Source: Argopecten irradians
Taxonomy: Eukaryota > Mollusca > Bivalvia > Pectinida > Pectinidae
Assembly (NCBI RefSeq): GCF_041381155.1
Contig: NC_091147.1
Coordinates: 31,531,349-31,595,348 of the forward strand
Reading direction: 5' to 3'
DNA: 64,000 nt
Positions within the stretch are counted from its first letter, which is position 1, and every line of letters begins with the position of its first letter. The translations under genes and the position numbers were made by a program. The notes under the pieces were generated by a model. The model had not been told where the DNA came from, did not search any database, and was given only the letters and a program-made list of their open reading frames with translations. Positions 22,085-60,400 of this stretch are shown piece after piece.

Positions 22085-22511
22085 ATATACTGTCATGATC
22101 TATAAATGTATTTATAGCTTGTTCTACTGCCATTATACATAAATGTATCTACAACTTATTATACCGTCTTTATCTTTATATCTATAAATGTATTTATAAC
22201 TTGTTCTAATGCCATTATATATAAATGTATCTACAACTTAGTATACCGTCTTTATCATTATATCTATAAATGTATTTATAGCTTGTTCTACTGCCATTAT
22301 ACATAAATGTATTTATAACTTGTTCTACTGCCATTATACATAAATGTATCTACAACTTATTATACCGTCTTTATCATTATATCTATAAATGTATTCACAG
22401 CTTGTTCTACAGTCATTGTATCTATAAATATATTTACAGATTGTTCTACTGTCAATGCATCTATAAATGAATTCACAGCTTTTTCTGCAGTCAATGTACC
22501 TATAAATATAT
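22085..22511. repeat. 39-bp satellite, segment 1
   Basis: Diverged units of 'tctataaatgtatt' + 'tacagcttgttctactg' + 'tcattata', unit length about 39 bp with some variants. The array is cut at 22,511 by the Ngaro-type element and resumes at about 30,287. Confidence 0.9.
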
Positions 22512-22746
22512 TACTGATTACCGACGTGTACGGTAATCAAAGTTATTGAAGCCATTATGGAAGTTTAGTATGTGTCATACGTAAGGTCACAGGAGTTACC
22601 CCCCTTTGACAGTAGTTAATAATTTAGAGTTATCTCGCTTTGCATAGGAAAGCATTGTATAGAACGTTATCCCAGCATGCTAAGTTAACATCCGGTCATC
22701 GACAGATTAGCAAATAAGAGGCACATGCTTGCAGAGAATTTTAATT
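22512..22746 (+). repeat. A1 split direct repeat (5' terminus)
   Basis: 235 bp, repeated almost exactly at 27,584-27,817 and 28,935-29,169. It marks the left end of the Ngaro-type element and probably includes the promoter and leader, since the first coding region starts only ~23 bases later. Confidence 0.85.
22515..22539. other. Putative recombinase crossover site in A1
   Basis: tgattaccg and cggtaatca form a perfect 9-bp inverted pair around the 7-base spacer acgtgta. Two inverted arms around a 6-8-base spacer is the usual core site of tyrosine recombinases. It lies three bases inside the element's left end. The same 25 bases recur at 27,587-27,611 and 28,938-28,962. Confidence 0.6.
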
Positions 22747-22769
22747 TGTACTGATCGGATTTCTTAAGT

Positions 22770-23774
22770 ATGCCAAGAGGTCTTGGAATTAGGAAGCGGC
22801 GAGGTCCCGGGGTGGCTTTGTCTCCGCCCCCAGAGAAAAGAAAAGGGGGAAGGCGAGCAGTTCCCCTCCCAAAAAGGACGGAGACCGCCGCTGGCGAGAC
22901 CCGGAGGGAGACTCCACGTGGTCAGCTGCCAGAGGTACCAGTAGTAGAGCTAGAGGAGGTACAAGTGGAGGATGGGATCACAGGTATGGGCATAGAGCCC
23001 GAACCGCAGATGTTATTAAATGTACATGATAATGGTTACAATAATAGCACTACCCCCGAGATCGAAATTATCCCCCTGGAGTCCGACTCCATCGGTGACC
23101 ATGTGCCCCGGGCTATAAAACAAAAAATCTGGGGTCACGAGTATATAAATTTGGCCCTTCTTTTAAAGGGCTACTCAGAATTGAATGACTTTTGCACTAG
23201 TGCGCCACTGGTTGTCGGATCCAGTGGGATGATAGAGACCCGCCCCCCTACGTGTAAAGAAAAAATACCAAATGTGGAGAAATGGACAGATGCTTTCCAC
23301 ATTTATATGTCCATTTATTTGGAAAGATTCCCCGCTAAGGTACAGGAACTTTTGCAGTATGTAAAAACAATACGTGGGGCAGCTTGTCAGGGTGTGCCGG
23401 GGGGTTGGCGAGTGTATGATGAGCAATTTAGGGCTCGTCTTAGTCAATCTCCTGGTTTAGCATGGAACCAAATTAATTCAAACCTTTGGCTCCGGGTAAT
23501 GACCCCTCAAGCCGGTGGAATGGGGAAGAACAATGTGGTCAAGGGAGGTAACAAGGAGTGGGGTGGGAAACATTCCAAGCCATCGCCTTGCTTTGGCTTC
23601 AATAGGAGTAAATGTACGTATAGTAACTGCAGGTACACTCATGTTTGCAGTATTTGTGCTGCTGACCATAGTGCATTGCAGTGCACTAAGTCTTTTCGGC
23701 CCTCAGCTGCAAGTTCCAGTCAAGGAAAAAACCCCCATGGCAGTGTCCAGTCTGGGAAAAACCCCAATAAATAG
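22770..23774 (+). CDS. Gag-like protein of the Ngaro-type element
   Basis: 334 codons from an ATG just after A1. The N terminus (residues ~1-60) is basic and proline/arginine-rich, as in nucleic-acid-binding Gag regions. The middle has no domain I recognise. The C-terminal part (residues ~268-305) has closely spaced Cys and His: CFGFNRSKC, then CRYTHVCSIC and DHSALQC, of which the last part (C-x2-C-x3-H-x4-C) is like a zinc knuckle. The expected role is packaging element RNA. The reading region overlaps the start of the reverse transcriptase frame, the usual compact arrangement in this family. The Gag assignment rests on position plus the Cys/His cluster. Confidence 0.7.
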   Translation: MPRGLGIRKRRGPGVALSPPPEKRKGGRRAVPLPKRTETAAGETRRETPRGQLPEVPVVELEEVQVEDGITGMGIEPEPQMLLNVHDNGYNNSTTPEIEIIPLESDSIGDHVPRAIKQKIWGHEYINLALLLKGYSELNDFCTSAPLVVGSSGMIETRPPTCKEKIPNVEKWTDAFHIYMSIYLERFPAKVQELLQYVKTIRGAACQGVPGGWRVYDEQFRARLSQSPGLAWNQINSNLWLRVMTPQAGGMGKNNVVKGGNKEWGGKHSKPSPCFGFNRSKCTYSNCRYTHVCSICAADHSALQCTKSFRPSAASSSQGKNPHGSVQSGKNPNK

Positions 23775-25350
23775 TAAAAAATTAAAACAGGAATTGCTTG
23801 ATTACCCAAACCATCAAATCACACAGGAGCTTGTTGATGGTTTTTCAGAGGGATTTCCTTTGCATTATCAGGGTATTAGGGAGGATACTGATTGTTTAAA
23901 TTTAGGTTCAGTCAGACAGAATGTCAATATGGCCCTTAAAAAAGTTCAAAAAGAGGTGGATCTTGGAAGGGTTGCCGGTCCATTTAAGGAAAGACCTTTA
24001 CCAAATTTGAGACTTTCTCCTTTGGGTCTGATTCCAAAGAGTACACCGGGGGAGTTTCGTTTAATCCACCACTTGTCACATCCTAAAGATAATTCAGTTA
24101 ATTCTGGTATCGATTCGGATTTGTGTTCTGTTCAGTATACCAAATTTGATGCGGCGATTGAATTGGTCCAAAATTTAGGTCAAGGGGCTTTATTAGCAAA
24201 ATCCGATATCAAATCAGCTTTTAGGTTACTGCCAATATCTCCACAAGACTTTGATTTATTGGGATTTAAGCTTCGGGGTTATTATTATTTTGATAAATGC
24301 TTACCGATGGGATGTTCATTATCATGCAGCTTATTTGAGAAATTTTCAAGTGCTTTAGAATGGATAGTTCAAAATAAATCAGGAAAACGATCTGTATTAC
24401 ATTATCTTGATGATTTCCTTTTTGGAGGTAAAGCTGGTTCCACCCAATGTAAGGATTTATTGGAATGTTTCTTAGCTTCTTGTGAAAACCTGGGAGTCCC
24501 TATTGCTGAGGAAAAGACGTTAGGCCCTTGCACTGTGTTATGTTTCCTAGGTTTAGAAATTGATACTGTAAATCTTACAATTAAAATTCCTGCAGCTAAA
24601 GTAGTTGAGATTTGTGAGAAGCTAGAAAATGTGTTCTCAAAGCAGAAAGTAACTTTAAGGGAAATGCAGTCGTTGATTGGGGCATTACATTTTGCTTGTA
24701 GGGCTGTAAGACCTGGGCGGACTTTTTGTCGACGTCTAATTAATTCAATTAAGGGTTTAACTCAGCCCCATCATCGCATTCGGGTTACTGGGGAAGTCAA
24801 GCAAGATATTGAGGCATGGTTATATTTCTTTAAGGGTTTTAATGGAGTTTCAGTGTTTCTAAACAAGGAATGGGAGAGTTCTCAGGATTTGTGTTTGTAC
24901 ACTGACAGCGCCGGGGGCCCAGGAATGGGGTTTGGGGCCTTTTTTAATGGTAAGTGGTGTTTTGGAGTATGGCCAGTCAAATGGCATGATCAGGGCTTAA
25001 CCAGAAGTATTACACTGCTTGAATTTTTCCCAATTTTAGTGGCCATAGTTGTTTGGGGGGAATTACTAACTAATAAAAAGATATTGTTTAGGTCAGACAA
25101 TACAGGAGTTGTAAGCATCATTAATTCTCTAACATCTAAGTCAGATCTGGTTATGAAACTAGTCCGGTCATTTGTTTTGAGATGTTTAAAATTTAACATA
25201 TTGTGTAAATGTTCACATATCCCTGGTGCTGATAACACTGTTGCTGATTCAATTTCACGTTTGCAGTGGGACAGATTCTTCCAGTTAGCTCCAGGCGCAG
25301 AACGGGAGCCACATGTGGTGCCAAACCATCTATGGGAAATCTTCAATTAG
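23515..25350 (+). CDS. Reverse transcriptase-RNase H of the Ngaro-type element
   Basis: The open region is 611 codons; the true N terminus is unclear because the first part overlaps the Gag-like region. Reverse transcriptase blocks run from residue ~145 to ~350: LSPLGLIPKS, FRLIHHLSHP, LLAKSDIKSAFRLLP (first catalytic Asp), CLPMGCSLSCSLFE and the catalytic VLHYLDDFLFGG. A thumb-like region with CFLGLEID follows. An RNase H domain occupies ~460-590, with LYTDSAGG, a Glu in TLLEFFPIL, RSDNTGVVSIIN and a late Asp in GADNTVADSISR, giving the expected acidic set. It would copy element RNA into DNA. Sequence features fit DIRS-like rather than LINE reverse transcriptases. Its end overlaps the recombinase frame by ~85 bases. 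Confidence 0.85.
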   Translation: MEWGRTMWSREVTRSGVGNIPSHRLALASIGVNVRIVTAGTLMFAVFVLLTIVHCSALSLFGPQLQVPVKEKTPMAVSSLGKTPINSKKLKQELLDYPNHQITQELVDGFSEGFPLHYQGIREDTDCLNLGSVRQNVNMALKKVQKEVDLGRVAGPFKERPLPNLRLSPLGLIPKSTPGEFRLIHHLSHPKDNSVNSGIDSDLCSVQYTKFDAAIELVQNLGQGALLAKSDIKSAFRLLPISPQDFDLLGFKLRGYYYFDKCLPMGCSLSCSLFEKFSSALEWIVQNKSGKRSVLHYLDDFLFGGKAGSTQCKDLLECFLASCENLGVPIAEEKTLGPCTVLCFLGLEIDTVNLTIKIPAAKVVEICEKLENVFSKQKVTLREMQSLIGALHFACRAVRPGRTFCRRLINSIKGLTQPHHRIRVTGEVKQDIEAWLYFFKGFNGVSVFLNKEWESSQDLCLYTDSAGGPGMGFGAFFNGKWCFGVWPVKWHDQGLTRSITLLEFFPILVAIVVWGELLTNKKILFRSDNTGVVSIINSLTSKSDLVMKLVRSFVLRCLKFNILCKCSHIPGADNTVADSISRLQWDRFFQLAPGAEREPHVVPNHLWEIFN

Positions 25351-26252
25351 AGATTGAGACTTTAATTCAGGGTAGTTTGTCCAATAATACAAAGCAGGCA
25401 TACAGTACAGGCCTGTCATCTTTTAAAAAATTCCGAGAGTTATACAGGCTATCTGAGATGTGGCCTGTGCCTATCAATCATTTGCTACAATATGTGGCTT
25501 ATTTATCTATCAGTGGAGCATCCCCTAGCACTACACAAACTTACTTGTCAGGTATAAGTTACCACCACAAAATTAAGGGGTGGGGGGATCCTGCAAAACA
25601 ATTTTTAGTACAGAAAGTTATGGAAGGTTATAGGCGTACAAAGGCATCTCCTGATGTGCGAGCTCCAATTACCTTAGATATCTTAAGGAAGATTGTAGGT
25701 GCATTACCGTTTGTTTGCACTTCAACATATGAAACAAGTTTATTTCGTGTGGCCTTCCTGTTAGCCTTTTTTGGTTTTATGAGGGTTGGTGAACTTACTA
25801 GTACTGCTAATTCAGATCATGCAGTGGGACTATCAGATGTGTCTTTAAATGATCAGGAGGTGACATTAAAACTAACCCACTCAAAAACAGATCAGACAGG
25901 TAAGGGTCATATTTTGGTTATCAGTGCTTGTCCAGATTTATCATTGTGCCCGGTTAAGGCAACATCAGCATTCCTTAGGATACGTCCTAAATCTCTAACT
26001 CGTGAATTTCTTTGCCATGCTAGTGGAAGGTCATTGTCGCGTTACCAATTTTCAGCAGTTTTGAAGAAAACATTGCAGTTCGCTAATGTCCCAGCTGCCA
26101 ATTTTAAAACTCACAGTTTTCGCATAGGGGCGGCGTCTGCGGCTTCGTTGCAGGGAACTCCGGATGAACAGATAAAAGTGCTGGGCCGCTGGAAGTCGGC
26201 ATGTTTTCAGAGATACATACGTATTAGTGCTCCAACATTGTTATGCCGTTAG
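25266..26252 (+). CDS. Tyrosine recombinase of the Ngaro-type element
   Basis: 328 codons in a frame overlapping the reverse transcriptase end. An N-terminal helical, core-binding-like part (SNNTKQAYSTGLSSFKKF, residues ~38-55) is followed by the catalytic domain. All active-site positions are visible: Arg in FFGFMRVGELT, Lys in THSKTDQTGKGH, the H-x-x-R box in THSFRIGAASAA, Trp in LGRWKSACF and the nucleophilic Tyr in QRYIRI. The enzyme is expected to insert a circular DNA copy by strand exchange, which leaves no target duplication; the flanks agree. The likely site of action is the inverted-arm motif in each A repeat, an inference from its form. Confidence 0.85.
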   Translation: MGQILPVSSRRRTGATCGAKPSMGNLQLEIETLIQGSLSNNTKQAYSTGLSSFKKFRELYRLSEMWPVPINHLLQYVAYLSISGASPSTTQTYLSGISYHHKIKGWGDPAKQFLVQKVMEGYRRTKASPDVRAPITLDILRKIVGALPFVCTSTYETSLFRVAFLLAFFGFMRVGELTSTANSDHAVGLSDVSLNDQEVTLKLTHSKTDQTGKGHILVISACPDLSLCPVKATSAFLRIRPKSLTREFLCHASGRSLSRYQFSAVLKKTLQFANVPAANFKTHSFRIGAASAASLQGTPDEQIKVLGRWKSACFQRYIRISAPTLLCR

Positions 26253-26373
26253 CTGTTTATTACTGCTTGTTTAAGGACATACTTTAATTTACCAGTAGCG
26301 TTGTTCGTTTTTGTGTATATGCTGTAATTAATTAGAGTAGGACAGATGCTAATATTGTAAGTTCATTACAGAT

Positions 26374-26952
26374 GTGTGGATCATTGGGTCTTCATTAGTT
26401 TATTGGGCAGAGAAGAGGGCAATACAGAGACTGAACAACAACCTTCGTCTTGAGAATATTAAAGTAGACATTACATGGACAGGTATTCGGGGTATGCATT
26501 GGCGGGATTTAATCCCTAAGGTCCGTCAGATGTTGTCAGTGAGTCAGGCAGGTCCCCCTTCTATGATGATATTACATTTGGGCTCCAATGATTTAGTTGA
26601 CCGCCCATGTGCTGAGTTACAAGAGGCAATTGCAAATGATATCCAATTGCTCCACCAGCTATGCCCGAAGACTGTCCTGGTCTGGTCAGATGTTTTGTGT
26701 AGGTTGTTTTGGTTTGGGGCTGGGAATTTGAGAGCAGTTGAGAGAAAGCGGGCACGGATAAATAGGAAAGGTAGAAAAGTAGTGAGAGCCTTTGGGGGGA
26801 AAATCATACACCATACAGAAATATCTTTTGATTGTCCAGGCCTGTTTCGTAAGGATGGTACTCATTTGTCTGATATTGGTAATGATATATTTATAACTGA
26901 TTTTCAATCAGCACTTGAGACATTCGTGAAAACAAATGCTATAGCTTTTTAG
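26374..26952 (+). CDS. SGNH hydrolase-like protein of the Ngaro-type element
   Basis: About 192 codons. It carries the four signature blocks of SGNH/GDSL hydrolases: Ser in WIIGSSLVYWA (block I), a Gly in the ITWTGIRG region (block II), Asn in LHLGSNDLVD (block III) and Asp-x-x-His in KDGTHLSDIGNDIF (block V). SGNH enzymes are usually esterases or lipases. Similar domains are known as accessory regions of some Ngaro and other retroelements, where their role is unsettled. It lies 121 bases after the recombinase, and its mode of expression is not evident; splicing from the upstream region is one option. Its stop is ~70 bases before the B1 repeat. Confidence 0.75.
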   Translation: MWIIGSSLVYWAEKRAIQRLNNNLRLENIKVDITWTGIRGMHWRDLIPKVRQMLSVSQAGPPSMMILHLGSNDLVDRPCAELQEAIANDIQLLHQLCPKTVLVWSDVLCRLFWFGAGNLRAVERKRARINRKGRKVVRAFGGKIIHHTEISFDCPGLFRKDGTHLSDIGNDIFITDFQSALETFVKTNAIAF

Positions 26953-27586
26953 CTGCTAAAATTAAAGGGCGTAGGGCATTGGTTGTTGCCAGATTGGGGC
27001 AGTAAGCTTTGCTTTCTGTTTGGCGGAATTCTGGCAAGTTGGCGGCAGCATGTGTCAATAAGCAAATTCCCCTTTCATTTTTAAGTGGTACGGGTATCCA
27101 GGGTAGGTCTGCTTGGTTTCCCAAGGGACATAACTCAGGAGGAAAAGTGATAAGGGGAGGTAACTCTGCAAGAGATGGATGATAGATCCAAGTTTGGGTG
27201 TTGGCTATGGGAGCCATCACAGTGTTTCATAGGCAACTGCTTGGAGCACACCAGCATGGTGTGCTTACACAAGAGTTGTGTTCGCCTGGTTTCCCAGGGA
27301 ACAGCCCTATAGTGTTGCTGTTTGTTGCTCATTATGCTGGTGGGCATTCAGCTTGGTGCTGTTTGTCGGGTAACCATGCAGGTGAGCATTCAGCAGTTTG
27401 CTGTTTGCTGGACACTATGCTAGTGGGCATTCGGCTGGAGATATCAGTCTCTTGTAGAGTTTCAGGTATATATAAATATATATGCTTGTTGGCACATGCT
27501 GCTGCTGTCTGGTTCAAAAAATCTGTGGCCGTATCCCAGCAATGAGTTTGTGTTGTTTGTATGGAATAAGGGTCTTGAAATAATAC

Positions 27587-27611
27587 TGATTACCGACGTG
27601 TACGGTAATCA
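27587..27611. other. Putative recombinase crossover site in A2
   Basis: Same 25-base inverted-arm motif as at 22,515, here four bases after the B1/A2 junction begins. Confidence 0.55.
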
Positions 27612-28937
27612 AAGTTATTGAAGCCATTATGGAAGTTTAGTATGTGTCATACGTAAGGTCACAGGAGTTACCCCCCTTTGACAGTAGTTAATAATTTAGA
27701 GTTATCTCGCTTTGCATAGGAAAGCATTGTATAGAACGTTATCCCAGCATGCTAAGTTAACATCCGGTCATCGACAGATTAGCAAATAAAGGCACATGCT
27801 TGCAGAGAATTTTAATTCCCACCCTCCCAACCCCTATTTCTAGTTGACATTCATTGTTTTATTACAGTATTGGTAAAATAACTTGTATGCTGTGCTTAAG
27901 CAATATTCTGCTGTTAGTTCTTTTTGTTTCAGTTTTCTCCAAGACATTATCTGGATATTTGGAAACATATACCTGACAAGGACGTTGTACAGTGTGATTC
28001 ATAGCGTGCCTTATTTCAGAAATCATTCTGGAGTTGTGTTCGGTTTTGTTGGCTAGTGGACTGTAAGTATTATTGTCTCGTATTAATGGACGATTCATGT
28101 GTGAGCTTTTCCTGGTGAGGACATGTTATGCCAGTGTGCTCAACAACAAAAAATTGGTGAAGAGTTAAAATTAAACTGCGCTTACTTTAAAGATTAAAAA
28201 GTGTGCAATTCATCAATTAACAACATTGATAGCAAAGTTCATTTGGATAAACAGGACTTTAACAGAAGTGAGTGATACTACATCATCTACATGGGAAAGA
28301 ATATCAAGTGACTATGATAATTCCATGTTTTGTTTGTTTTCTTTGTCACAGGTTTGCTGTTTTGAATAAATTAGCGGAATTCTGGCAAGTTGGCGGCAGA
28401 ATGTGTCAATAAGCAAATTCCCCTTTCATTTTTAAGTGGTACGGGTATCCAGGGTAGGTCTGCTTGGTTTCCCAAGGGACATAACTCAGGAGGAAAAGTG
28501 ATAAGGGGAGGTAACTCTGCAAGAGATGGATGATAGATCCAAGTTTGGGTGTTGGCTATGGGAGCCATCACAGTGTTTCATAGGCAACTGCTTGGAGCAC
28601 ACCAGCATGGTGTGCTTACACAAGAGTTGTGTTCGCCTGGTTTCCCAGGGAACAGCCCTATAGTGTTGCTGTTTGTTGCTCATTATGCTGGTGGGCATTC
28701 AGCTTGGTGCTGTTTGTCGGGTAACCATGCAGGTGAGCATTCAGCAGTTTGCTGTTTGCTGGACACTATGCTAGTGGGCATTCGGCTGGAGATATCAGTC
28801 TCTTGTAGAGTTTCAGGTATATATAAATATATATGCTTGTTGGCACATGCTGCTGCTGTCTGGTTCAAAAAATCTGTGGCCTTATCCCAGCAATGAGTTT
28901 GTGTTGTTTGTATGGAATAAGGGTCTTGAAATAATAC

Positions 28938-28962
28938 TGATTACCGACGTGTACGGTAATCA
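28938..28962. other. Putative recombinase crossover site in A3
   Basis: Third copy of the motif, at the B2/A3 junction. Confidence 0.55.
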
Positions 28963-30286
28963 AAGTTATTGAAGCCATTATGGAAGTTTAGTATGTGTCA
29001 TACGTAAGGTCACAGGAGTTACCCCTCTTTGACAGTAGTTAATAATTTAGAGTTATCTCGCTTTGCATAGGAAAGCATTGTATAGAACGTTATCCCAGCA
29101 TGCTAAGTTAACATCCGGTCATCGACAGATTAGCAAATAAGAGGCACATGCTTGCAGAGAATTTTAATTCCCACCCTCCCAACCCCTATTTCTAGTTGAC
29201 ATTCATTGTTTTATTACAGTATTGGTAAAATAACTTGTATGCTGTGCTTAAGCAATATTCTGCTGTTAGTTCTTTTTGTTTCAGTTTTCTCCAAGACATT
29301 ATCTGGATATTTGGAAACATATACCTGACAAGGACGTTGTACAGTGTGATTCATAGCGTGCCTTATTTCAGAAATCATTCTGGAGTTGTGTTCGGTTTTG
29401 TTGGCTAGTGGACTGTAAGTATTATTGTCTCGTATTAATGGACGATTCATGTGTGAGCTTTTCCTGGTGAGGACATGTTATGCCAGTGTGCTCAACAACA
29501 AAAAATTGGTGAAGAGTTAAAATTAAACTGCGCTTACTTTAAAGATTAAAAAGTGTGCAATTCATCAATTAACAACATTGATAGCAAAGTTCATTTGGAT
29601 AAACAGGACTTTAACAGAAGTGAGTGATACTACATCATCTACATGGGAAAGAATATCAAGTGACTATGATAATTCCATGTTTTGTTTGTTTTCTTTGTCA
29701 CAGGTTTGCTGTTTTGAATAAATTAGCGGAATTCTGGCAAGTTGGCGGCAGCATGTGTCAATAAGCAAATTCCCCTTTCATTTTTAAGTGGTACGGGTAT
29801 CCAGGGTAGGTCTGCTTGGTTTCCCAAGGGACATAACTCAGGAGGAAAAGTGATAAGGGGAGGTAACTCTGCAAGAGATGGATGATAGATCCAAGTTTGG
29901 GTGTTGGCTATGGGAGCCATCACAGTGTTTCATAGGCAACTGCTTGGAGCACACCAGCATGGTGTGCTTACACAAGAGTTGTGTTCGCCTGGTTTCCCAG
30001 GGAACAGCCCTATAGTGTTGCTGTTTGTTGCTCATTATGCTGGTGGGCATTCAGCTTGGTGCTGTTTGTCGGGTAACCATGCAGGTGAGCATTCAGCAGT
30101 TTGCTGTTTGCTGGACACTATGCTAGTGGGCATTCGGCTGGAGATATCAGTCTCTTGTAGAGTTTCAGGTATATATAAATATATATGCTTGTTGGCACAT
30201 GCTGCTGCTGTCTGGTTCAAAAAATCTGTGGCCTTATCCCAGCAATGAGTTTGTGTTGTTTGTATGGAATAAGGGTCTTGAAATAA

Positions 30287-30870
30287 TAATAGATTGTTCT
30301 ACTGTCAATGTATCTATAAATGTATTATAACTTGTTCTACTGTCATTATATATATCATTGTATTTACAACTTAGTATACCGTCTTTATCTTTATATCTAT
30401 ACATGTATTTACAGCTTGTTCTACAGTCATTGTATCTATAAATGGAATTATAACTTGTTATACTGTCATTGTATCTGTACATGTATTTGCATCTTGTTCT
30501 ACTGTCATTATATCTATAAATGTATTCACAGCTTGTTCTACTGACATTATATCTATAAATGGAATTATAACTTGTTATACTGTCATTGTATCTGTACATG
30601 TATTTGCATCTTGTTCTACTGTCATTATATCTATAAATGTATTCACAGCTTGTTCTACAGTCAATGTATCTATAAATATATTTATAGATTGTTCTACTGT
30701 CATAATATCTATAAATGTATTCACAGCTTGTTCTACAGTCAATGTATCTATAAATATATTTATAGATTGTTCTACTGTCAATGTATCTATACATGTATTT
30801 ACATCTTGTTCTACTGTCATTATATATCAATGTATTTACAACTTATTATACCGTCTTTATATTTATATCT
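30287..30870. repeat. 39-bp satellite, segment 2
   Basis: About 15 units, resuming directly after the Ngaro-type element and ending at the LTR element. The 198-residue minus frame (30,234-30,830) and the plus-strand frames here come from the unit length being a multiple of three. Confidence 0.93.
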
Positions 30871-45648: not shown

Positions 45649-45843
45649 AATTAACATTAAAATTTGTACATATATCGGAAAAAACAGTTCTAATGGAAAT
45701 TAGATCAGCTGGTTTTACTGTAATATGCCAGAAAAGCCCATAGTGGTGAAATGCATGTGGAGTGTTCAAACTCGTTCGCTGTCCGCCATTACACATTGTG
45801 GTCGAACTTCTTGTATGCCGAACCCTGTCCCTTGCTCGTAGAG
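45649..45843. other. Unique sequence present only on the left side of the satellite
   Basis: About 195 bases between the left inverted arm and the first satellite unit. The right arm abuts the satellite directly, without this sequence. It reads like ordinary intergenic DNA. Confidence 0.7.
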
Positions 45844-48800
45844 TAATTAATCATAAGTACACATGTACAGTAATTAATCATTAGTACACATGTACAGTAA
45901 TTAATCATAAGTACACATGTACAGTAATTAATCATAAGTACACATGTACAGTAATTAATCATAAGTACACATGTACAGTAATTAATCATAAGTACACATG
46001 TACAGTAATTAATCATAAGTACACATGTACAGTAATTAATCATAAGTACACATGTACAGTAATTAATCATAAGTACACATGTACAGTAATTAATCATAAG
46101 TACACATGTACAGTAATCAATCATAAGTACACATGTACAGTAATTAATCATAAGTACACATGTACAGTAATCAATCATAAGTACAAATGTACAGTAATTA
46201 ATCATAAGTACACATGTACAGTAATTAATCATAAGTACACATGTACAGTAATTAATCATAAGTATACAGTAATTAATCATAAGTACACATGTACAGTAAT
46301 TAATCATAAGTACACATGTACAGTAATCAATCATAAGTACACATGTACAGTAATTAATCATAAGTACACATGTACAGTAATTAATCATAAGTACACATGT
46401 ACAGTAATCAATCATAAGTACACGTGTACAGTAATTAATCATAAGTACACATGTACAGTAATCAATCATAAGTACACATGTACAGTAACACATAAGTACA
46501 CATGTACAGTACTTAATTATAAGTACACATGTACAGTAATTAATCATAAGTACACATGTACAGTAATTAATCATAAGTACACATGTACAGTAATTAATCA
46601 TAAGTACACATGTACAGTAATTAATCATAAGTACACATGTACAGTAATTAATCATAAGTACACATGTACAGTAATCAATCATAAGTACACATGTACAGTA
46701 ATTAATCATAAGTACACATGTACAGTAATCAATCATAAGTACACATGTACAGTAATTAATCATAAGTACACATGTACAGTAATTAATCATAAGTACACAT
46801 GTACAGTAATTAATCATAAGTACACATGTACAGTAATTAATCATAAGTACACGTGTACAGTAATTAATCATAAGTACACATGTACAGTAATTAATCATAA
46901 GTACACATGTACAGTAATTAATCATAAGTACACATGTACAGTAATTAATCATAAGTACACATGTACAGTAATTAATCATAAGTACACATGTACAGTAATT
47001 AATCATAAGTACACGTGTACAGTAATTAATCATAAGTACACATGTACAGTAATTAATCATAAGTACACATGTACAGTAATCAATCATAAGTACACATGTA
47101 CAGTAATCAATCATAAGTACACGTGTACAGTAATTAATCATAAGTACACATGTACAGTAATTAATCATAAGTACACATGTACAGTAATTAATCATAAGTA
47201 CACATGTACAGTAACAATAAGTAACATGTACAGTATTAATCATAAGTACACATGTACAGTAATTAATCATAAGTACACATGTACAGTAATCAATCATAAG
47301 TACACATGTACAGTAATTAATCATAAGTACACATGTACAGTAATTAATCATAAGTACACATGTACAGTAATTAATCATAAGTACACATGTACAGTAATTA
47401 ATCATAAGTACACATGTACAGTAATTAATCATAAGTACACATGTACAGTAATTAATCATAAGTACACATGTACAGTAATTAATCATAAGTACACATGTAC
47501 AGTAATCAATCATAAGTACACATGTACAGTAATCAATCATAAGTACAAATGTACAGTAATCAATCATAAGTACACATGTACAGTAATCAATCATAAGTAC
47601 ACATGTACAGTAATTAATCATAAGTACACATGTACAGTAATTAATCATAAGTACACATGTACAGTAATTAATCATAAGTACACATGTACAGTAATTAATC
47701 ATAAGTACACATGTACAGTAATTAATCATAAGTACACATGTACAGTAATTAATCATAAGTACACATGTACAGTAATCAATCATAAGTACACATGTACAGT
47801 AATTAATCATAAGTACACATGTACAGATTAATTAATCATAAGTACACATGTACAGTAATTAATCATAAGTACATGTACAGTAATTAATCAAAGTACACAT
47901 GTACAGTAATTAATCATAAGTACACATGTACAGTAATTAATCATAAGTACACATGTACAGTAATTAATCATAAGTACACATGTACAGTAATCAATCATAA
48001 GTACACATGTACAGTAATTAATCATAAGTACACATATGTACAGTAATTAAGCATATAGTACACATGTACAGTAATTAATCATAAGTACACATGTACAGTA
48101 ATTAATCATAAGTACACATGTACAGTAATTAATCATAAGTACACATGTACAGTAATTAATCATAAGTACACATGTACAGTAATCAATCATAAGTACACAT
48201 GTACAGTAATTAATCATAAGTACACATGTACAGTAATCAATATAAGTACACATGTACAGTAATTAATCATAAGTACACATGTACAGTAATTAATCATAAG
48301 TACACATGTACAGTAATTAATCATAAGTACACATGTACAGTAATCAATCATAAGTACACATGTACAGTAATTAATCATAAGTACACGTGTACAGTAATTA
48401 ATCATAAGTACACATGTACAGTAATTAATCATAAGTACACATGTACAGTAATTAATCATAAGTACACATGTACAGTAATTAATCATAAGTACACATGTAC
48501 AGTAATTAATCATAAGTACACATGTACAGTAATTAATCATAAGTACACATGTACAGTAATTAATCATAAGTACACATGTACAGTAATTAATCATAAGTAC
48601 ACATGTACAGTAATCAATCATAAGTACACATGTACAGTAATCAATCATAAGTACACATGTACAGTAATCAATCATAAGTACACATGTACAGTAATTAATC
48701 ATAAGTACACATGTACAGTAATTAATCATAAGTACACATGTACAGTAATTAATCATAAGTACACATGTACAGTAATTAATCATAAGTACACATGTACAGT

Positions 48801-51800
48801 AATTAATCATAAGTACACATGTACAGTAATCAATCATAAGTACACATGTACAGTAATTAATCATAAGTACACATGTACAGTAATTAATCATAAGTACACA
48901 TGTACAGTAATCAATCATAAGTACACATGTACAGTAATTAATCATAAGTACACATGTACAGTAATTAATCATAAGTACACATGTACAGTAATTAATCATA
49001 AGTACACATGTACAGTAATTAATCATAAGTACACATGTACAGTAATTAATCATAAGTACACATGTACAGTAATTAATCATAAGTACACATGTACAGTAAT
49101 TAATCATAAGTACACATGTACAGTAATTAATCATAAGTACACATGTACAGTAATTAATCATAAGTACACATGTACAGTAATCAATCATAAGTACACATGT
49201 ACAGTAATTAATCATAAGTACACATGTACAGTAATCAATCATAAGTACACATGTACAGTAATCAATCATAAGTACACATGTACAGTAATCAATCATAAGT
49301 ACACATGTACAGTAATTAATCATAAGTACACATGTACAGTAATCAATCATAAGTACACATGTACAGTATTTAATCATAAGTACACATGTACAGTAATCAA
49401 TCATAAGTACACATGTACAGTAATTAATCATAAGTACACATGTACAGTAATTAATCATAAGTACACATGTACAGTAATTAATCATAAGTACACATGTACA
49501 GTAATTAATCATAAGTACACATGTACAGTAATTAATCATAAGTACACATGTACAGTAATTAATCATAAGTACACATGTACAGTAATTAATCATAAGTACA
49601 CATGTACAGTAATTAATCATAAGTACACATGTACAGTAATCAATCATAAGTACAAATGTACAGTAATTAATCAAATTAATCATAAGTACACATGTACAGT
49701 AATCAATCATAAGTACATGTACAGTAATAATCATAAGTACACATGTACAGTAATAATCATAAGTACACTGTACAGTAATTAATCATAAGTACACATGTAC
49801 AGTAATAATCATAAGTACACATGTACAGTAATTAATCATAAGTACACATGTACAGTAATCAATCATAAGTACACATGTACAGTAATTAATCATAAGTACA
49901 CATGTACAGTAATCAATCATAATACACTGTACAGTAATAATCATAAGTACACATGTACAGTAATCAATCATAAGTACACATGTACAGTAATTAATCATAA
50001 GTACACATGTACAGTAATTAATCATAAGTACACATGTACAGTAATTAATCATAAGTACACATGTACAGTAATTAATCATAAGTACACATGTACAGTAATT
50101 AATCATAAGTACACATGTACAGTAATTAATCATAAGTACACATGTACAGTAATCAATCATAAGTACACATGTACAGTAATTAATCATAAGTACACATGTA
50201 CAGTAATACAGTAATTAATCATAAGTACACATGTACAGTAATTAATCATAAGTACACATGTACAGTAATTAATCATAAGTACACATGTACAGTAATTAAT
50301 CATAAGTACACATGTACAGTAATTAATCATAAGTACACATGTACAGTAATTAATAATAACTATACATGTACAGTAATTAATCATAAGTACACATGTACAG
50401 TAATTAATCATAAGTACACATGTACATTAATTAATCATAAGTACACGTGTACAGTAATTAATCATAAGTACACATGTACAGTAATTAATCATAAGTACAC
50501 ATGTACAGTAATTAATCATAAGTACACATGTACATTAATTAATCATAAGTACACATGTACAGTAATTAATCATAAGTACACATGTACAGTAATTAATCAT
50601 AAGTACACATGTACAGTAATTAATCATAAGTACACATGTACAGTAATCAATCATAAGTACACATGTACAGTAATTAATCATAAGTACACATGTACAGTAA
50701 TTAATCATAAGTACACATGTACAGTAATTAATCATAAGTACACATGTACAGTAATTAATCATAAGTACACATGTACAGTAATCAATCATAAGTACACATG
50801 TACAGTAATCAATCATAAGTACACATGTACAGTAATTAATCATAAGTACACATGTACAGTAATCAATCATAAGTACACATGTACAGTAATCAATCATAAG
50901 TACACATGTACAGTAATTAATCATAAGTACACATGTACAGTAATCAATCATAAGTACACATGTACAGTAATTAATCATAAGTACACATGTACAGTAATTA
51001 ATCATAAGTACACATGTACAGTAATCAATCATAAGTACACATGTACAGTAATTAATCATAAGTACACATGTACAGTAATTAATCATAAGTACACATGTAC
51101 AGTAATCAATCATAAGTACACATGTACAGTAATTAATCATAAGTACACATGTACAGTAATTAATCATAAGTACACATGTACAGTAATCAATCATTAGTAC
51201 ACATGTACAGTAATTAATCATAAGTACACATGTACAGTAATTAATCATAAGTACACATGTACAGTAATCAATCATAAGTACACATGTACAGTAATTAATC
51301 ATAAGTACACATGTACAGTAATTAATCATAAGTACACATGTACAGTAATTAATCATAAGTACACATGTACAGTAATTAATCATAAGTACACATGTACAGT
51401 AATTAATCATAAGTACACATGTACAGTAATTAATCATAAGTACACATGTACAGTAATTAATCATATAACATGTACAGTAATTAATCATAAGTACACATGT
51501 ACAGTAATTAATCATAAGTACACATGTACAGTAATTAATCATAAGTACACATGTACAGTAATTAATCATAAGTACACATGTACAGTAATTAATCATAAGT
51601 ACACATGTACAGTAATTAATCATAAGTACACATGTACAGTAATTAATCATAAGTACACATGTACAGTAATCAATCATAAGTACACATGTACAGTAATTAA
51701 TCATAAGTACACATGTACAGTAATTAATCATAAGTACACATGTACAGTAATTAATCATAAGTACACATGTACAGTAATTAATCATAAGTACACATGTACA

Positions 51801-54800
51801 GTAATTAATCATAAGTACACATGTACAGTAATTAATCATAAGTACACATGTACAGTAATTAATCATAAGTACACATGTACAGTAATTAATCATAAGTACA
51901 CATGTACAGTAATTAATAATAACTATACATGTACAGTAATTAATCATAAGTACACATGTACAGTAATTAATCATAAGTACACATGTACAGTAATTAATCA
52001 TAAGTACACATGTACAGTAATCAATCATAAGTACACATGTACAGTAATTAATCATAAGTACACATGTACAGTAATTAATCATAAGTACACATGTACAGTA
52101 ATCAATCATAAGTACACATGTACAGTAATTAATCATAAGTACACATGTACAGTAATCAATCATAAGTACACATGTACAGTAATTAATCATAAGTACACAT
52201 GTACAATAATTAATCATAAGTACACATGTACAGTAATTAATCATAAGTACACATGTACAGTAATCAATCATAAGTACACATGTACAGTAATTAATCATAA
52301 GTACACATGTACAGTAATTAATCATAAGTACACATGTACAGTAATAAATCATAAGTACACATGTACAGTAATTAATCATAAGTACACATGTACAGTAATT
52401 AATCATAAGTACACATGTACAGTAATTAATCATAAGTACACTGTACAGTAATTAATCATAAGTACACATGTACAGTAATCAATCATAAGTACACATGTAC
52501 AGTAATTAATCATAAGTACACATGTACAGTAATCAATCATAAGTACACATGTACAGTAATTATCATAAGTACACATGTACAGTAATTAATCATAAGTACA
52601 CATGTACAGTAATTAATCATAAGTACACATGTACAGTAATAATCATAAGTACACATGTACAGTAATCAATCATAAGTACACATGTACAGTAATCAATCAT
52701 AAGTACAAATGTACAGTAATTAATCATAAGTACACATGTACAGTAATCAATCATAAGTACACATGTACAGTAATTAATCATAAGTACACATGTACAGTAA
52801 TTAATCATAAGTACACATGTACAGTAATTAATCATAAGTACACATGTACAGTAATTAATCATAAGTACACATGTACAGTAATCAATCATAAGTACACATG
52901 TACAGTAATCAATCATAAGTACACATGTACAGTAATCAATCATAAGTACACATGTACAGTAATTAATCATAAGTACACATGTACAGTAATTAATCATAAG
53001 TACACATGTACAGTAATTAATCATAAGTACACATGTACAGTAATTAATCATAAGTACACATGTACAGTAATTAATCATAAGTACACATGTACAGTAATTA
53101 ATCATAAGTACACATGTACAGTAATTAATCATAAGTACACATGTACAGTAATCAATCATAAGTACACATGTACAGTAATCAATCATAAGTACAAATGTAC
53201 AGTAATTAATCATAAGTACACATGTACAGTAATCAATCATAAGTACACATGTACAGTAATCAATCATAAGTACACATGTACAGTAATTAATCATAAGTAC
53301 ACATGTACAGTAATTAATCATAAGTACACATGTACAGTAATTAATCATAAGTACACTGTACAGTAATAATCATGTACATGTACAGTAATTAATCATAAGT
53401 ACACATGTACAGTAATTCAATCATAAGTACACATGTACAGTATCAATCATAAGTACACATGTACAGTAATCAATCATAAGTACACATGTACAGTAATTAA
53501 TCATAAGTACACATGTACAGTAATAATCATAAGTACACATGTACAGTAATTAATCATAAGTACACGTGTACAGTAATTAATCATAAGTACACATGTACAG
53601 TAATTAATCATAAGTACACGTGTACAGTAGTAATCATTAGTACACATGTACAGTAACATCATGTACACATGTAATTAATCATAAGTACACATGTACAGTA
53701 ATCAATCATAAGTACACATGTACAGTAATTAATCATAAGTACACATGTACAGTAATCAATCATAAGTACACATGTACAGTAATTAATCATAAGTACACGT
53801 GTACAGTAATTAATCATAAGTACACATGTACAGTAATTAATCATAAGTACACATGTACAGTAATTAATCATAAGTACACATGTACAGTAATTAATCATAA
53901 GTACACATGTACAGTAATCAATCATAAGTACACATGTACAGTAATTAATCATAAGTACACATGTACAGTAATTAATCATAAGTACACATGTACAGTAATC
54001 AATCATAAGTACAAATGTACAGTAATCAATCATAAGTACACATGTACAGTAATTAATCATAAGTACACATGTACAGTAATTAATCATAAGTACACATGTA
54101 CAGTAATCAATCATAAGTACACATGTACAGTAATTAATCATAAGTACACATGTACAGTAATCAATCATAAGTACACATGTACAGTAATCAATCATAAGTA
54201 CACATGTACAGTATTCAATCATAAGTACACATGTACAGTAATAATAATCATAAGTACACATGTACAGTAATTAATCATAAGTACAGATGTACAGTAATAA
54301 TCATAAGTACACGTGTACAGTAATTAATCATAAGTACACATGTACAGTAATCAATCATAAGTACACGTGTACAGTAATCAATCATAAGTACACATGTACA
54401 GTAATTAATCATAAGTACACATGTACAGTAATTAATCATAAGTACACATGTACAGTAATTAATCATAAGTACACATGTACAGTAATTAATCATAAGTACA
54501 CATGTACAGTAATCAATCATAAGTACACATGTACAGTAATCAATCATAAGTACACATGTACAGTAATAATCATAAGTACACATGTACAGTAATCATAATA
54601 CATGTACAGTAATTAATCATAAGTACACATGTACAGTAATCAATCATAAGTACACGTGTACAGTAATTAATCATAAGTACACATGTACAGTAATTAATCA
54701 TAAGTACACATGTACAGTAATTAATCATAAGTACACATGTACAGTAATTAATCATAAGTACACATGTACAGTAATTAATCATTAGTACACATGTACAGTA

Positions 54801-55049
54801 ATTAATCATAAGTACACATGTACAGTAATTAATCATTAGTACACATGTACAGTAATTAATCATAAGTACACATGTACAGTAATTAATCATAAGTACACAT
54901 GTACAGTAATTAATCATAAGTACACATGTACAGTAATCAATCATAAGTACACATGTACAGTAATTAATCATAAGTACACATGTGTACAGTAATTAATCAT
55001 AAGTACACATGTACAGTAATTAATCATAAGTACACATGTACAGTACAGA
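45844..55049 (+). repeat. 27-bp satellite array, forward orientation
   Basis: About 340 units of taattaatcataagtac + acatgtacag. The unit contains the palindrome-like gtacacatgtac. The commonest variant is a T/C change (taattaat versus taatcaat), with rarer cacgtg and caaatg forms. Local higher-order structure is visible, for example a 3-unit (81-bp) pattern around 50,940-51,270. Units are very uniform. Because 27 is nine codons, frames of up to 673 residues stay open on both strands at once; these are not genes. Confidence 0.97.
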
Positions 55050-57480
55050 TTAATTACTGTACATGTGTACTTATGATTAATTACTGTACATGTGTACTTA
55101 TGATTAATTACTGTACATGTGTACTTATGATTAATTACTGTACATGTGTACTTATGATTAATTACTGTACATTTGTACTTATGATTAATTACTGTACATG
55201 TGTACTTATGATTAATTACTGTACATGTGTACTTATGATTACTTATGATTACTGTACATGTGTACTTATGATTGATTACTGTACATGTGTACTTATGATT
55301 GATTACTTACTGTACATGTGTACTTATGATTATTACTGTACACGTGTACTTATTAATTACTGTACTGTACTTATGATTGATTACTGTACATTGATTATGT
55401 ACTGTACATGTACTTATGATTACTGTTACTGTACATGTGTACTTACATGATTAATTTACTGTACATGTGTACTTATGATTAATTACTGTACATGTGTACT
55501 TATGATTAATTACTGTACATGTGTACTTATGACTTATGATTAATTACTGTACATGTGTACTTATGATTAATACTGTACATGTGTACTTATGATTAATTAC
55601 TGTACATGTGTACTTATGATTAATTACTGTACATGTGTACTTATGATTAATTACTGTACATGTGTACTTATGATTAATTACTGTACATGTGTACTTATGA
55701 TTAATTACTGTACATGTGTACTTATGATTAATTACTGTACATGTGTACTTATGATTATTACTGTACATGTGTACTTATGATTAATTACTGTACATGTGTA
55801 CTTATGATTGAATTACTGTACATGTGTACTTATGATTAATTATGTACACGTGTACTTATGTTGATTACTGTACATACTTATGATTATTACTGTACATGTG
55901 TACTTATGATTAATTACTGTACATGTGTACTTATGATTAATTACTGTACATGTGTACTTATGATTAATTACTGTACATGTGTACTTATGATTAATTACTG
56001 TACATGTATACTTATGATTAATTACTGTACATGTGTACTTATGATTAATTACTGTACATGTGTACTTATGATTAATTACTGTACATGTGTGTACATTATG
56101 ATTAATTACATGTTATGATTAATTACTGTACATGTACTACTTATGATTAATTACTGTACATGTGTACTTATGATTAATTACTGTGTGTACTTATGTTAAT
56201 TACTGTACATGTGTACTTATGATTAATTACTGTACATGTGTACTTATGATTAATTACTGTACATGTGTACTTATGATTAATTACTGTACATGTGTACTTA
56301 TGATTAATTACTGTACATGTGTACTTATGATTAATTACTGTACATGTGTACTTATGATTAATTACTGTACATGTGTACTTATGATTAATTACTGTACATG
56401 TGTACTTATGATTAATTACTGTACATGTGTACTTATGATTAATTACTGTACATGTGTACTTATGATTAATTACTGTACATGTGTACTTATGATTAATACT
56501 GTACATGTGTACTTACTTATGATTAATTACTGTACATGTGTACTTATGATTATTACTGTACATGTGTACTTATGATTAATTACTGTACACGTGTACTTAT
56601 GATTAATTACTGTATTTATGATTACTTACTGTACATGTGTACTTATGATTACACTGTACATTTGTACTTATGATTAATTACTGTACATGTGTACTTATGA
56701 TTAATTACTGTATGATTGATTATTACTGTACATGTGTACTGTATTATTACTGTACATGATTGATTAATTACTGTACATGTGTACTTATACTGTACATGTA
56801 CTTGATTAATTACTGTACATGTGTACTTATGATTAATTACTGTACTTATGATTAATTACTGTACATGTGTACTTATGATTAATTACATGTGTACTTATGT
56901 TGTTACTGTACTTACTTATGATTAATTACTGTACATGTGTACTTATGATTAATTACTGTACATGTGTACTTATGATTGATTACTGTACATGTGTACTTAT
57001 GATTAATTACTGTACATTTGTACTTATGATTAATTACTGTACATGTTACTGTACTTATGATTAATTACTGTACATGTGTACTTATGATTAATTACTGTAC
57101 ATGTGTACTTATGATTAATTACTGTACATTGTACTTATGATTAATTACTGTACATGTGTACTTGATTAATTACTGTACATGTGTACTTATGATTGTACTT
57201 AATTAATTACTGTACATGTGTACTTATGATTAATTACTGTACATGTGTACTTATGATTAATTACTGTACATGTGTACTTATGATTAATTACTGTACATGT
57301 GTACTTATGATTAATTACTGTACATGTGTACTTATGATTAATTACTGTACATGTGTACTTATGATTGATTACTGTACATGTGTACTTATGATTAATTACT
57401 GTACATGTGTACTTATGATTAATTACTGTACATGTGTACTTATGATTAATTACTGTACATGTGTACTTATGATTAAATTA
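55050..57480 (-). repeat. 27-bp satellite array, inverted orientation
   Basis: From 55,050 the same unit runs as its reverse complement (ctgtacatgtgtac + ttatgattaatta). The switch lies in 'cagtacagattaattactg'. Units are mostly clean to 56,570, then carry increasing short deletions and duplications, with a clean block at 57,193-57,475. Confidence 0.95.
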
Positions 57481-60400
57481 CTGCTTACGATGTACTAATG
57501 ATTTTAATTAACTTACACAGTATGATGAGCTTGAGAGATTAGAATTAGATTGTACTAACGTGAGAGGAATCTTATGATTGAGATATATATGTAATATGTG
57601 TGTACTTATGATTAATGTGATGTAACCACGAGATAGCTTAGATTGAGAGATGACAGTACTGTATGTTATACTTATGATTACAGAATACTTAGTACGAGTG
57701 TGTACAGTATGATGAGAATTACTGAGAATATTTTGTACTGAATATGATTGATTACTCGTCTCACAGTTATACTTATATTTGATTTACTGTACACGTCGTA
57801 CTTATGTATTGAATTAACTGTACATGTTGTACTTATGATTAAGTACTGTACCACTTGTTACTTTATTGATTAATTTATTGTACGTCGTGTACTTATGATT
57901 AATTTATTTACCTGTACATTTGTACATATGATTGCAATTACTGAGTATACATGAGTATAGTACTTATTATTGATTACTGTTACATTATGTACTTAATGAT
58001 TAAGTACAGTTACACGCTATACGTAATGCTTTATTATTTAAACATCGTGTACGTGTGAATCACTTACTATATATTAAAAGTATGTGAACTACGTATGAGT
58101 TATTAATTAAATGTACTGTGTGTGAGTAACTAATGCGAATTTACGTACATGTAACATGTATACTTATGATTTTATTACTGTTACCATGTTTACGAAATGA
58201 TTGATATTACTTTTGACATGCTGGTGTACCTTATGATTGATTACTGTAAATGAGAGTGACTTATGAGTGACTTCCTGCTACAGATCGCCTATCTTATGAA
58301 CTTGGTTTATCTGTTACAGGTGGTCAATTTTATGACTTGCTTACTGGTACATGCTGTTACTTGTTGATATTGATTAACGGTGTTACGTGTTGTATGGCAG
58401 ATTAAAGGACCTTTACAGTTTACGCGCATGATGTTGGAGTTATGTTTAATTACTGTACTCATGTGGTGTACTAATGGTTTATATTACTGTACTATGCTGG
58501 TACTTTTGAAATAATTACTGATTACAGTGTGCACTTATGATTGATTACTGTACATTTGGTACTTATGATTGATTGATTTACTGTATTATGTGTTCCTAAA
58601 GACGTATTTTCTGTACATGGATAGTACCGCTACGATTGATTACTGCTACATAGATGATACTTATTGATCAGAAATTCGTGAACATTGGTTTATACGCTTA
58701 TGTAGTGCATACACTATATTCCACGTGTATATTTGAATGAAGTTGACAGATTACTGAGTGCATTTGTCTCGAATAATTATTGATTAATTGAATCGATCAT
58801 GAATTGCATTTACTGTATGTATTGACCTTGATTACTTGTACGATGGTGCTGTACTCCTGAGATAATATTAACTGATCCATGTGTGACCACCTAGTTGATT
58901 TAGTGTACCTGGTTTTACCCCCCCCCCCCCCCTGCGTGACGTGTAGCTAATTGATTAATTTCTTGTTAACGTCTGTACTTGATGGATAAAGTACTGTACA
59001 CGTGTTAGTTATTATGGATTACTGTTCATGTATACTGTCTTGAATTATGTTATCTGTATGATTCTTCCCATGTACAATATTTAATACAAAAGTGATTATA
59101 AAATAGCTGTACACGGACATCTTTATAATTAATTTGTACTGCTACGCACGTATACCTTATTTATTAAATACCGTATAGTAGATACTTAATGCTTAATTAT
59201 AGTTACAATGTGAACTTTTGATGAATTACTGTCTCTACAATGTGTTACTTATGAGTTGAATTACACTCTTCCATGTGTTCTTCTGGATTGAATACTGTTA
59301 TATATGTACTTCATGATTGATTACTGTTCAGGGGCCTTGGTACTTCATAATTTAAGTGTGTTACTGTGACGAATTCTTGTACTTAGGCATGAGTTGCAGT
59401 ACATGTGTACTTATGCTTACATACGTGTACTACGAGGACTTGATTAATATTGATTACTTGACATGGTGTAGCTATTTGCATTGAATTTTACGTTACACGT
59501 TGTTTTTATGATTAATTATAGTACTCATGCAAATGATAAATATAATATGATAACATTACATCTGTACTCATTGATGGAATACTTGTAGCGTTGTAATTAC
59601 TGCTGTAACTCATGTGTCAGACTTTTCATTCTAATCGATTTAATTACTGCTAGCAGTGTCAGTACTTATGATTGATTACTGTACGTATGTGTAACATAAA
59701 TGATTAGATTAACTCGAGTACAGTTGCTGAACGTTGATGATTAGATTTCTGTACATTGTGTAGAATCATGATTGATTACTAGTGACATGTGTGGTACCCA
59801 TTTTTGCCCCCCCTACATTTTGTACTTATGAGATCTCGATTATGCTGTACACGCGTGTACTTAGTGATTATATTAAGTGGTAACGATGTAGTTAGTATGG
59901 ATACATTTGTAATCTATCTTTGTTATCATTGTTAGTACGTTATCCTCTATGATTACGCGTACATGTATGTAGCTGTGATGGTCATTACGTGACACGAGTT
60001 AATGTACTTAAGAGTTGAATACGATGGTACATGGTGGTACTGTATTAGGAAGTGTTGTACTGATTACGTTTGTACGTATGAGTTATTTACGTGTACAGAA
60101 GTATGTTTGATGACCCCCCCCCCCCCGCCCCCCCGCAAGTCCCCCCCCCCCTATTTACACGTGGTTGAGAGCGTATGATTAAGTTACTGTACATTTAGAT
60201 ACTTAGAGTGAACATACACTGTACGACGGGTGTATTCACTTAGTAGAGTGATAACGATTGGTACACGGTACGTGTAGTTGCGTATTAATTACGTGTAGCA
60301 GTGTATCTGAGGGACTATCACTTGAGTAACATGTGTACTTAAAATGATTGGACTTTACCTGTTACATTTGTACTTTATGATTGACAGTGTACTCTACATG

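Follow-up and report, generated by a model that had tools for sequence, protein, structure and literature searches.

How does a retrotransposon equipped with a tyrosine recombinase find and join its target? To our knowledge, integration in the DIRS order, which includes the Ngaro elements, has so far been modeled rather than measured. The question is raised by an Ngaro-type element of Argopecten irradians, which occupies positions 22512-30286 of the window, that is, of the whole 64,000-nucleotide stretch analysed (assembly GCF_041381155.1, contig NC_091147.1, positions 31,531,349 to 31,595,348 of the forward strand). The element has the layout [A-ORFs-B][A-X-B][A-X-B], in which A and B are repeats, X is a filler, and the ORFs are open reading frames. 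The initial annotation had described an inverted motif at the head of every A repeat and read it as a recombinase core site with its crossover in the 7-base spacer. This 25-base motif, TGATTACCG-ACGTGTA-CGGTAATCA, occurs unchanged at 22515-22539, 27587-27611, and 28938-28962, where shuffled sequence would give 0.04 matches in place of three, and 17 exact copies of the inverted site occur in the 846-Mb assembly of the same genome. We propose instead that it belongs to an attachment site recognised partly by its fold, probably as a single strand in the manner of the integron attC, a reading to which we give an even chance. A mostly sharp joint, a target triplet, a conserved fold, and the use of a single junction together favor such a folded single-strand site.

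Position of the joint

Left ends were read in five families and number 40, drawn from 16 of the 39 A matches of the window family and from 12 of 15, 5 of 32, 4 of 40, and 3 of 32 A matches in the other four. Dropped from this set were L034 and L039 (near-copies of L030 and L037), L035, whose match starts inside A, and L074 and L084, which are internal junctions. Apart from L023, L079, and L080, the ends are clean, and all 37 clean ends read NTA[A/T/C]^ (hereafter NTAH^, the caret marking the joint) followed by the element. TA always occupies positions -3/-2, and the triplet is TAA in 26 ends, TAT in 9, and TAC in 2. The third base changes from target to target, which places the joint immediately behind it. 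The whole palindrome therefore falls inside the element in these 37 ends, with the joint 2-4 nt outside the left arm. In the window family, the distance is 3 nt, at NTAH^TAC, and the left arm starts 3 bases inside A in all three A copies of the window, given an element left joint after 22511 and B/A junctions after 27583 and 28934. The expectation that the arms mark the joining point was thus borne out, whereas the crossover was not found in the 7-base spacer, which is better read as a hairpin loop.

Right ends of the window family read GAAATAA and then target in 10 of the 12 copies read, L004 and L041 being different; two copies on C15 whose B match stops short stand outside this count. To locate the B1 end, four stretches were taken, of which L097 stopped before reaching it. 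Both ends were read in 11 copies of this family. Eight of them are informative at +1 to +3, and all eight carry the TAC of the element; the other three comprise two uninformative copies and C9:42.5M (L023/L099), whose left end is altered. Position -1 is informative in the window, C4:37.9M, and L072/L059 pairs, where the left end carries the target base and the right end the A of the element. The window copy itself lies inside a 39-bp minisatellite, and its joined flanks (30 bases each) match the unit at 30730 without gaps at 56 of 60 positions. This ungapped match to an intact unit indicates that insertion adds no target duplication. Among the copies surveyed, two on C15 (C15:4945601 and C15:4979884), separated by 34 kb, have almost the same left flank and probably reflect a segmental duplication. 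Two single-unit elements, L033 (C4:37920951) and L023 (C9:42537770), have altered left arms, and L023 is bordered on each side by some 7-10 target-like bases.

The fold at the B/A junction

A longer dyad, CTTGAAATAA^TAC-[TGATTACCG-N7-CGGTAATCA]-AAG-TTATTGAAG, contains the motif as its inner half and is whole only where B precedes A, at 27574-27623 and 28925-28974. Such a junction can be drawn as a two-storey fold, in which an outer stem pairing the B end (..ATAA) with TTAT.. in A is followed by a small internal loop, an inner stem, and an apical loop. A folded B/A site of this kind was located in ten families of this genome (window, L059, L061, L063, L066, L068, L069, L070, L071, and L102), mostly with different letters; L064, which carries the L063 site, did not count as an additional family, and L103 repeats L102. 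The B end of the other families was taken as the point where B1 and B2 part, set independently of any hairpin. In L066 and L069, the arrangement recurs within a longer tandem repeat in which divergence does not reveal the end of B; L066 scores 15, ten shuffles reaching at most 13.5. L102 was located at an offset borrowed from a related element, without a B2 check.

The inverted repeat begins 2-4 nt after the B end in L059, L061, L063, L068, L070, and L071. A perfect 7-bp inner stem stands in the right place at five of six junctions (window, L059, L061, L063, L068, and L071), compared with 252 of 16595 positions of the same loci. Within the ten families, 68 of 70 inner-arm pairs are formed, whereas swapping arms between families leaves 2.4 of 7, and none of 20000 arm permutations reached this sum. 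Outer pairs -7..-5 are formed in 21 of 30 cases, a count reached by 2 of 20000 permutations, and ATAA/TTAT is constant in eight of the ten families. The loop between the inner arms measures 2-9 nt. When the junctions were folded as DNA, z ranged from -2.5 to -6.8, and 0 to 3 of 200 shuffles folded as well. The non-standard pairs on the sense strand comprise four G-T/T-G, no A-C, and eight others. The arms are thus kept as a pair, as the initial annotation had envisaged, while their letters and the loop length vary between families. Older copies of the site (L036, L037, L039, L040, L042, and L043) have in common a C-to-A change at arm position 8, which leaves seven outer pairs, or six in L042 with its second change. 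We also considered whether the B end holds a third arm as a mirror of the one in A (GGGTCTTGA, 5/9 by eye), but inspection of L059 by eye showed no such arm.

Directly before B1 (27000-27029 in the window; 1241-1265 in L063) stands a second hairpin, whose arms are specific to each family, beside GGCGG signals, and several loci share the pattern GGCGG-arm-loop-arm-TTTGGCGG. It was found by script in 11 of 15 loci and by eye in L061 and L066, counts that carry no shuffle control. The window has an imperfect version on the + strand at 27000-27018 (CAGTAAGC-TTT-GCTTTCTG, then TTTGGCGG), seen by eye and missed by the script. No such hairpin was seen in L067, nor in front of B2 in L066, L068, L069, and L071. 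It is perhaps a start for reverse transcriptase (RT) or an RNA-processing signal.

Unit order and the competing readings

The order of the units bears on what the recombinase reads. A two-unit element holds one B/A junction internally (B1/A2) and would gain a second (B2/A1) on joining of its ends. A circle in which either could serve equally well should yield permuted insertions, headed by A-X-B, in roughly half of the cases. In all 25 countable pairs of A copies from four families, as counted from coordinates, the ORF unit is the first, and 18 of these pairs enclose a recombinase match between their A copies. No permuted insertion, [A-X-B][A-ORF-B], occurs among these 25 pairs, a count that leaves out C12:6.12M (copies 10,966 apart) and C16:18.13M (3,201 apart). 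The search for the L063 family covered 40 of 105 candidates by score, and that for the recombinase 130 of 817. Judging from these arrangements, just one of the two identical junctions, B1/A2 and B2/A1, appears to be used. A recombinase that reads duplex could hardly tell identical duplexes apart, whereas single- versus double-strandedness could distinguish them, so that the single used junction favors a folded strand.

Other copies vary in the number of units. C4:37.9M, C9:42.5M, and C4:33.7M end at B1 with target directly behind; elements therefore consist of one to three units whose limits fall at the joint. This ladder of A..B units fits the closing and resolving of a circle, and it also fits homologous recombination. 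In the L071 family, A-A spacings of 422-860 occur at three places, and L104, the one read, keeps the usual order, as judged by its pre-B1 hairpin. L104 (C16:28689640-28690340) is a mini-element whose 422-bp first unit lacks ORFs yet retains A, B, and the pre-B hairpin, which suggests, as far as its sequence can tell, that these three may be the requirements in cis. Spacings between A copies suggest similar mini-elements on C12 and C3, and L043 (C3:10130070-10133296) is a 1.7-kb A..B copy of the window family that has lost internal sequence and retains its two ends.

On the folded-strand reading, integration may proceed as follows. One strand, presumably the single-stranded complementary DNA (cDNA), would fold at the point where B gives way to A, with the arms as inner stem and the spacer as apical loop. 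The element's own recombinase would then join target and element at the foot of the internal loop, NTAH^ of the target to TAC.. of A, while ..ATAA^ of B would be joined to the other side of the target without duplication. The recombinase would recognise the folded cDNA as the integron integrase does attC, and the outer and inner stems may serve as its two binding boxes. Only one strand would be exchanged, the other being made by synthesis, and insertion would split the outer stem between the two ends and thereby make integration one-way. That Ngaro elements integrate single-stranded cDNA through such a hairpin and their own tyrosine recombinase, with arm letters free to drift and the target reduced to NTAH, is a fuller claim that we hold at slightly less than even strength. 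For DIRS elements, the title of one study reportedly names a linear single-stranded cDNA.

The alternative that survives best is a double-stranded dyad, in which an ordinary duplex is bound by a recombinase dimer or tetramer, the inner arms are binding or accessory sites beside a TAA^ crossover, and no hairpin forms. The typical recognition site of a tyrosine recombinase has inverted arms of 11-13 bp that enclose 6-8 bp, according to the portion of the source available to us (PMC3212892), and divergence of the recombinase between families (34-49% identity to that of the window) could drag both arms along. This account has to accommodate a joint outside the arms, an exchange that is sharp in most copies without a 6-8 bp overlap, and an inner-arm spacing that varies from 2 to 9 nt. 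Moreover, B1/A2 and B2/A1, being identical, should both serve, yet one order is found in 25 of 25 pairs, unless the intermediate is linear. We regard the duplex dyad as possible but doubtful.

Less probable still is a hairpin that acts in the transcript, through cleavage, a template jump, or as a splint for RT, and so sets the cDNA ends used by the recombinase. The four G-T pairs without any A-C, the position of B1/A2 inside any full transcript, and the second hairpin with its variable arms directly before B1 would all suit it. Nevertheless, the target TAH resembles the TAA of the B end at the foot of the fold, as one would expect if the joint arose by recombination and not from an RNA end, and we consider this explanation improbable. 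An ordinary regulatory palindrome, a host-factor or promoter element near the end by chance, is very unlikely: the motif is present in A1, which presumably may hold the promoter, but pairing is conserved across families despite changed letters, the motif stands 2-4 nt from the joint in all five families whose left ends were read, and its outer stem is built with B, which A1 lacks. Finally, the canonical tyrosine-recombinase core site proposed initially has the expected perfect 9-bp arms and 7-bp spacer, yet it is scarcely tenable, because the 37 clean left ends and the empty-site comparison place strand exchange outside the arm (3 nt from it in the window family) and loop length and letters vary between families.

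Several observations weigh against a folded single strand. A double-stranded dyad gives the same pairing at the level of sequence, where the two strands are not distinguished. The four G-T pairs against no A-C lend weak support to folding of the sense strand, and such counts are small; a linear intermediate would account equally well for the single used junction. As the arms were chosen for pairing, the permutation result would speak for family-specific pairing and not for the existence of hairpins; it also ignores relatedness (L066 and L068 have inner-arm letters in common), and a single genome supplied every family. One mismatch keeps L068 from a perfect stem, the L066 score is tied by an AT-rich run in its own locus, L070 (AAAAAT) and L102 (ATTAA) depart from ATAA, and a loose combined descriptor is satisfied at 2002 of 18379 background positions. 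No acceptable junction was found in L058, L060, L062, L065, and L067, which have no visible B1/B2 pair; scores in L065 (12.0 against 11.5) and L067 (15 against 14, ten shuffles each) slightly exceeded the shuffles at places that have no other support. At the ends themselves, L023 has target-like bases at +1..+7 of its left end and L004 at -8..-1 of its right end, the right end of L041 is one base short, L079 has no hairpin, and the left end of L080 is ambiguous. Even in the window copy, right-flank position +2 is A where the matching unit at 30730 has T, so that a short mixed stretch is possible.

Despite these points, the defined joint, the target triplet, and the fold kept across ten families provide testable oligonucleotide substrates. 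If the attachment site is indeed read as a single strand, folded-strand recombination, which we know from bacteria and phage only, would also operate in eukaryotic retrotransposons, as an attC- or CTX-like process in an animal genome. It would likewise explain why just one of two identical junctions per element appears to be used and why target duplication is missing.

Element content and known systems

The element is flanked on the left by a 39/82-bp minisatellite (TRF; 22098-22511), which ends ..AAATATAT at the joint, and all its features lie on the + strand. A1 (22512-22746) forms the left end, beginning TACTGATTACCG.., and includes the inner stem-loop at 22515-22539. An ORF in the gag position follows at 22770-23774, without a Pfam match at E 0.01. 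The RT/RNase H ORF extends over 23515-25350; the scanned part, 23740-25350, matches RVT_1 at 3.5e-13, with RVT_3 below its cutoff. The tyrosine recombinase ORF (25266-26252) matches Phage_int_SAM_1 at 2.3e-5, above cutoff, and Phage_integrase at 0.0018, below cutoff. Its nearest solved chain is Cre (E 0.5), with which HSFR, W, and Y align weakly; R (FMRVGE) and K (HSKTD) were assigned by eye. A GDSL/SGNH-type hydrolase ORF lies at 26374-26952 (Lipase_GDSL_2, 2.2e-6, below the curated cutoff). B1 (27020-27583) then meets A2 (27584-27818, inner stem-loop 27587-27611) in the full attachment-site hairpin at 27574-27623, with the joint at 27583/27584, a dG of -9.9 kcal/mol, and a z of -4.4. X (27819-28367) and B2 (28371-28934) lead to the second full hairpin at B2/A3 (28925-28974, joint 28934/28935). 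A3 (28935-29169, inner stem-loop 28938-28962) opens the extra A-X-B unit, followed by the second X copy (29171-29719) and B3 (29723-30286), the right end of which reads ..CTTGAAATAA. Beyond it, at 30287-30867, the same minisatellite resumes at TAATAGATTG. Elsewhere in the window, a very long 27-bp satellite occupies 45838-57483, with more than 340 copies in its first part and a change of strand of the unit at about 55046. No relatives of the recombinase or RT were confirmed in viral contigs.

By domains and repeat layout, as read from the sequence, the element fits an Ngaro-type retrotransposon: it has an RT with an RNase H part (weak, given RVT_3), a tyrosine recombinase instead of a DDE integrase (by Phage_int_SAM_1), and the split direct repeats A1-ORFs-B1A2B2 with one additional A-X-B unit. 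The Pfam scan of the four ORFs revealed no methyltransferase-like domain at E 0.01, as expected of Ngaro. Available portions of the literature describe Ngaro elements of the DIRS order as carrying RT, tyrosine recombinase, in some cases a hydrolase, and split direct repeats, A1-[ORFs]-B1A2B2 (PMC8547959, PMC9210276). The window element shares all of these and differs in its extra A-X-B unit and in its folded junction site, the latter undescribed in the parts of the Ngaro accounts consulted. More broadly, in the literature searched and the portions available, the ends of Ngaro or DIRS elements are nowhere described as bearing a hairpin or palindrome; the founding Ngaro papers lie outside that search, and priority is not established. 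DIRS1-like elements, as far as the available part of the source goes, integrate at a 3-bp circular junction without target duplication, and 23 of 28 annotated elements have NTT termini, most commonly ATT (PMC3266345). DIRS1 has inverted terminal repeats, unlike the window element, and no hairpin is mentioned in that part of the account. The absence of target duplication at the joint, as far as that account describes it, is common to both.

Likenesses to the fold come from systems outside the eukaryotes. The integron attC is a bacterial gene-cassette site that carries a GTT triplet and is cut in its outer box. It consists of imperfect inverted repeats of palindromic organisation and variable sequence and length, and its folded bottom strand recombines, according to the portion of the source available (PMC8876359). 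The site described here likewise is an imperfect hairpin of variable letters and conserved pairing, whose foot carries a short fixed motif (ATAA^ in eight of ten families, L070 and L102 differing; TAH^ in all 37 clean left ends), but it belongs to a eukaryotic retroelement and uses TAH^ in place of GTT. The ends of IS200/IS605 elements also combine a subterminal hairpin with a short target motif kept 5' of the left end and no duplication. Their enzyme is of the HUH type, in contrast to the tyrosine recombinase here, and no HUH single-strand transposase domain was detected in the four ORFs at E 0.01 (Pfam). In CTX-type phages, attP is a hairpin of the single-stranded genome that is used by tyrosine recombinases for one-way integration. 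Whereas that system relies on the host XerCD and a dif target, the scallop element would employ its own recombinase at dispersed TAH targets.

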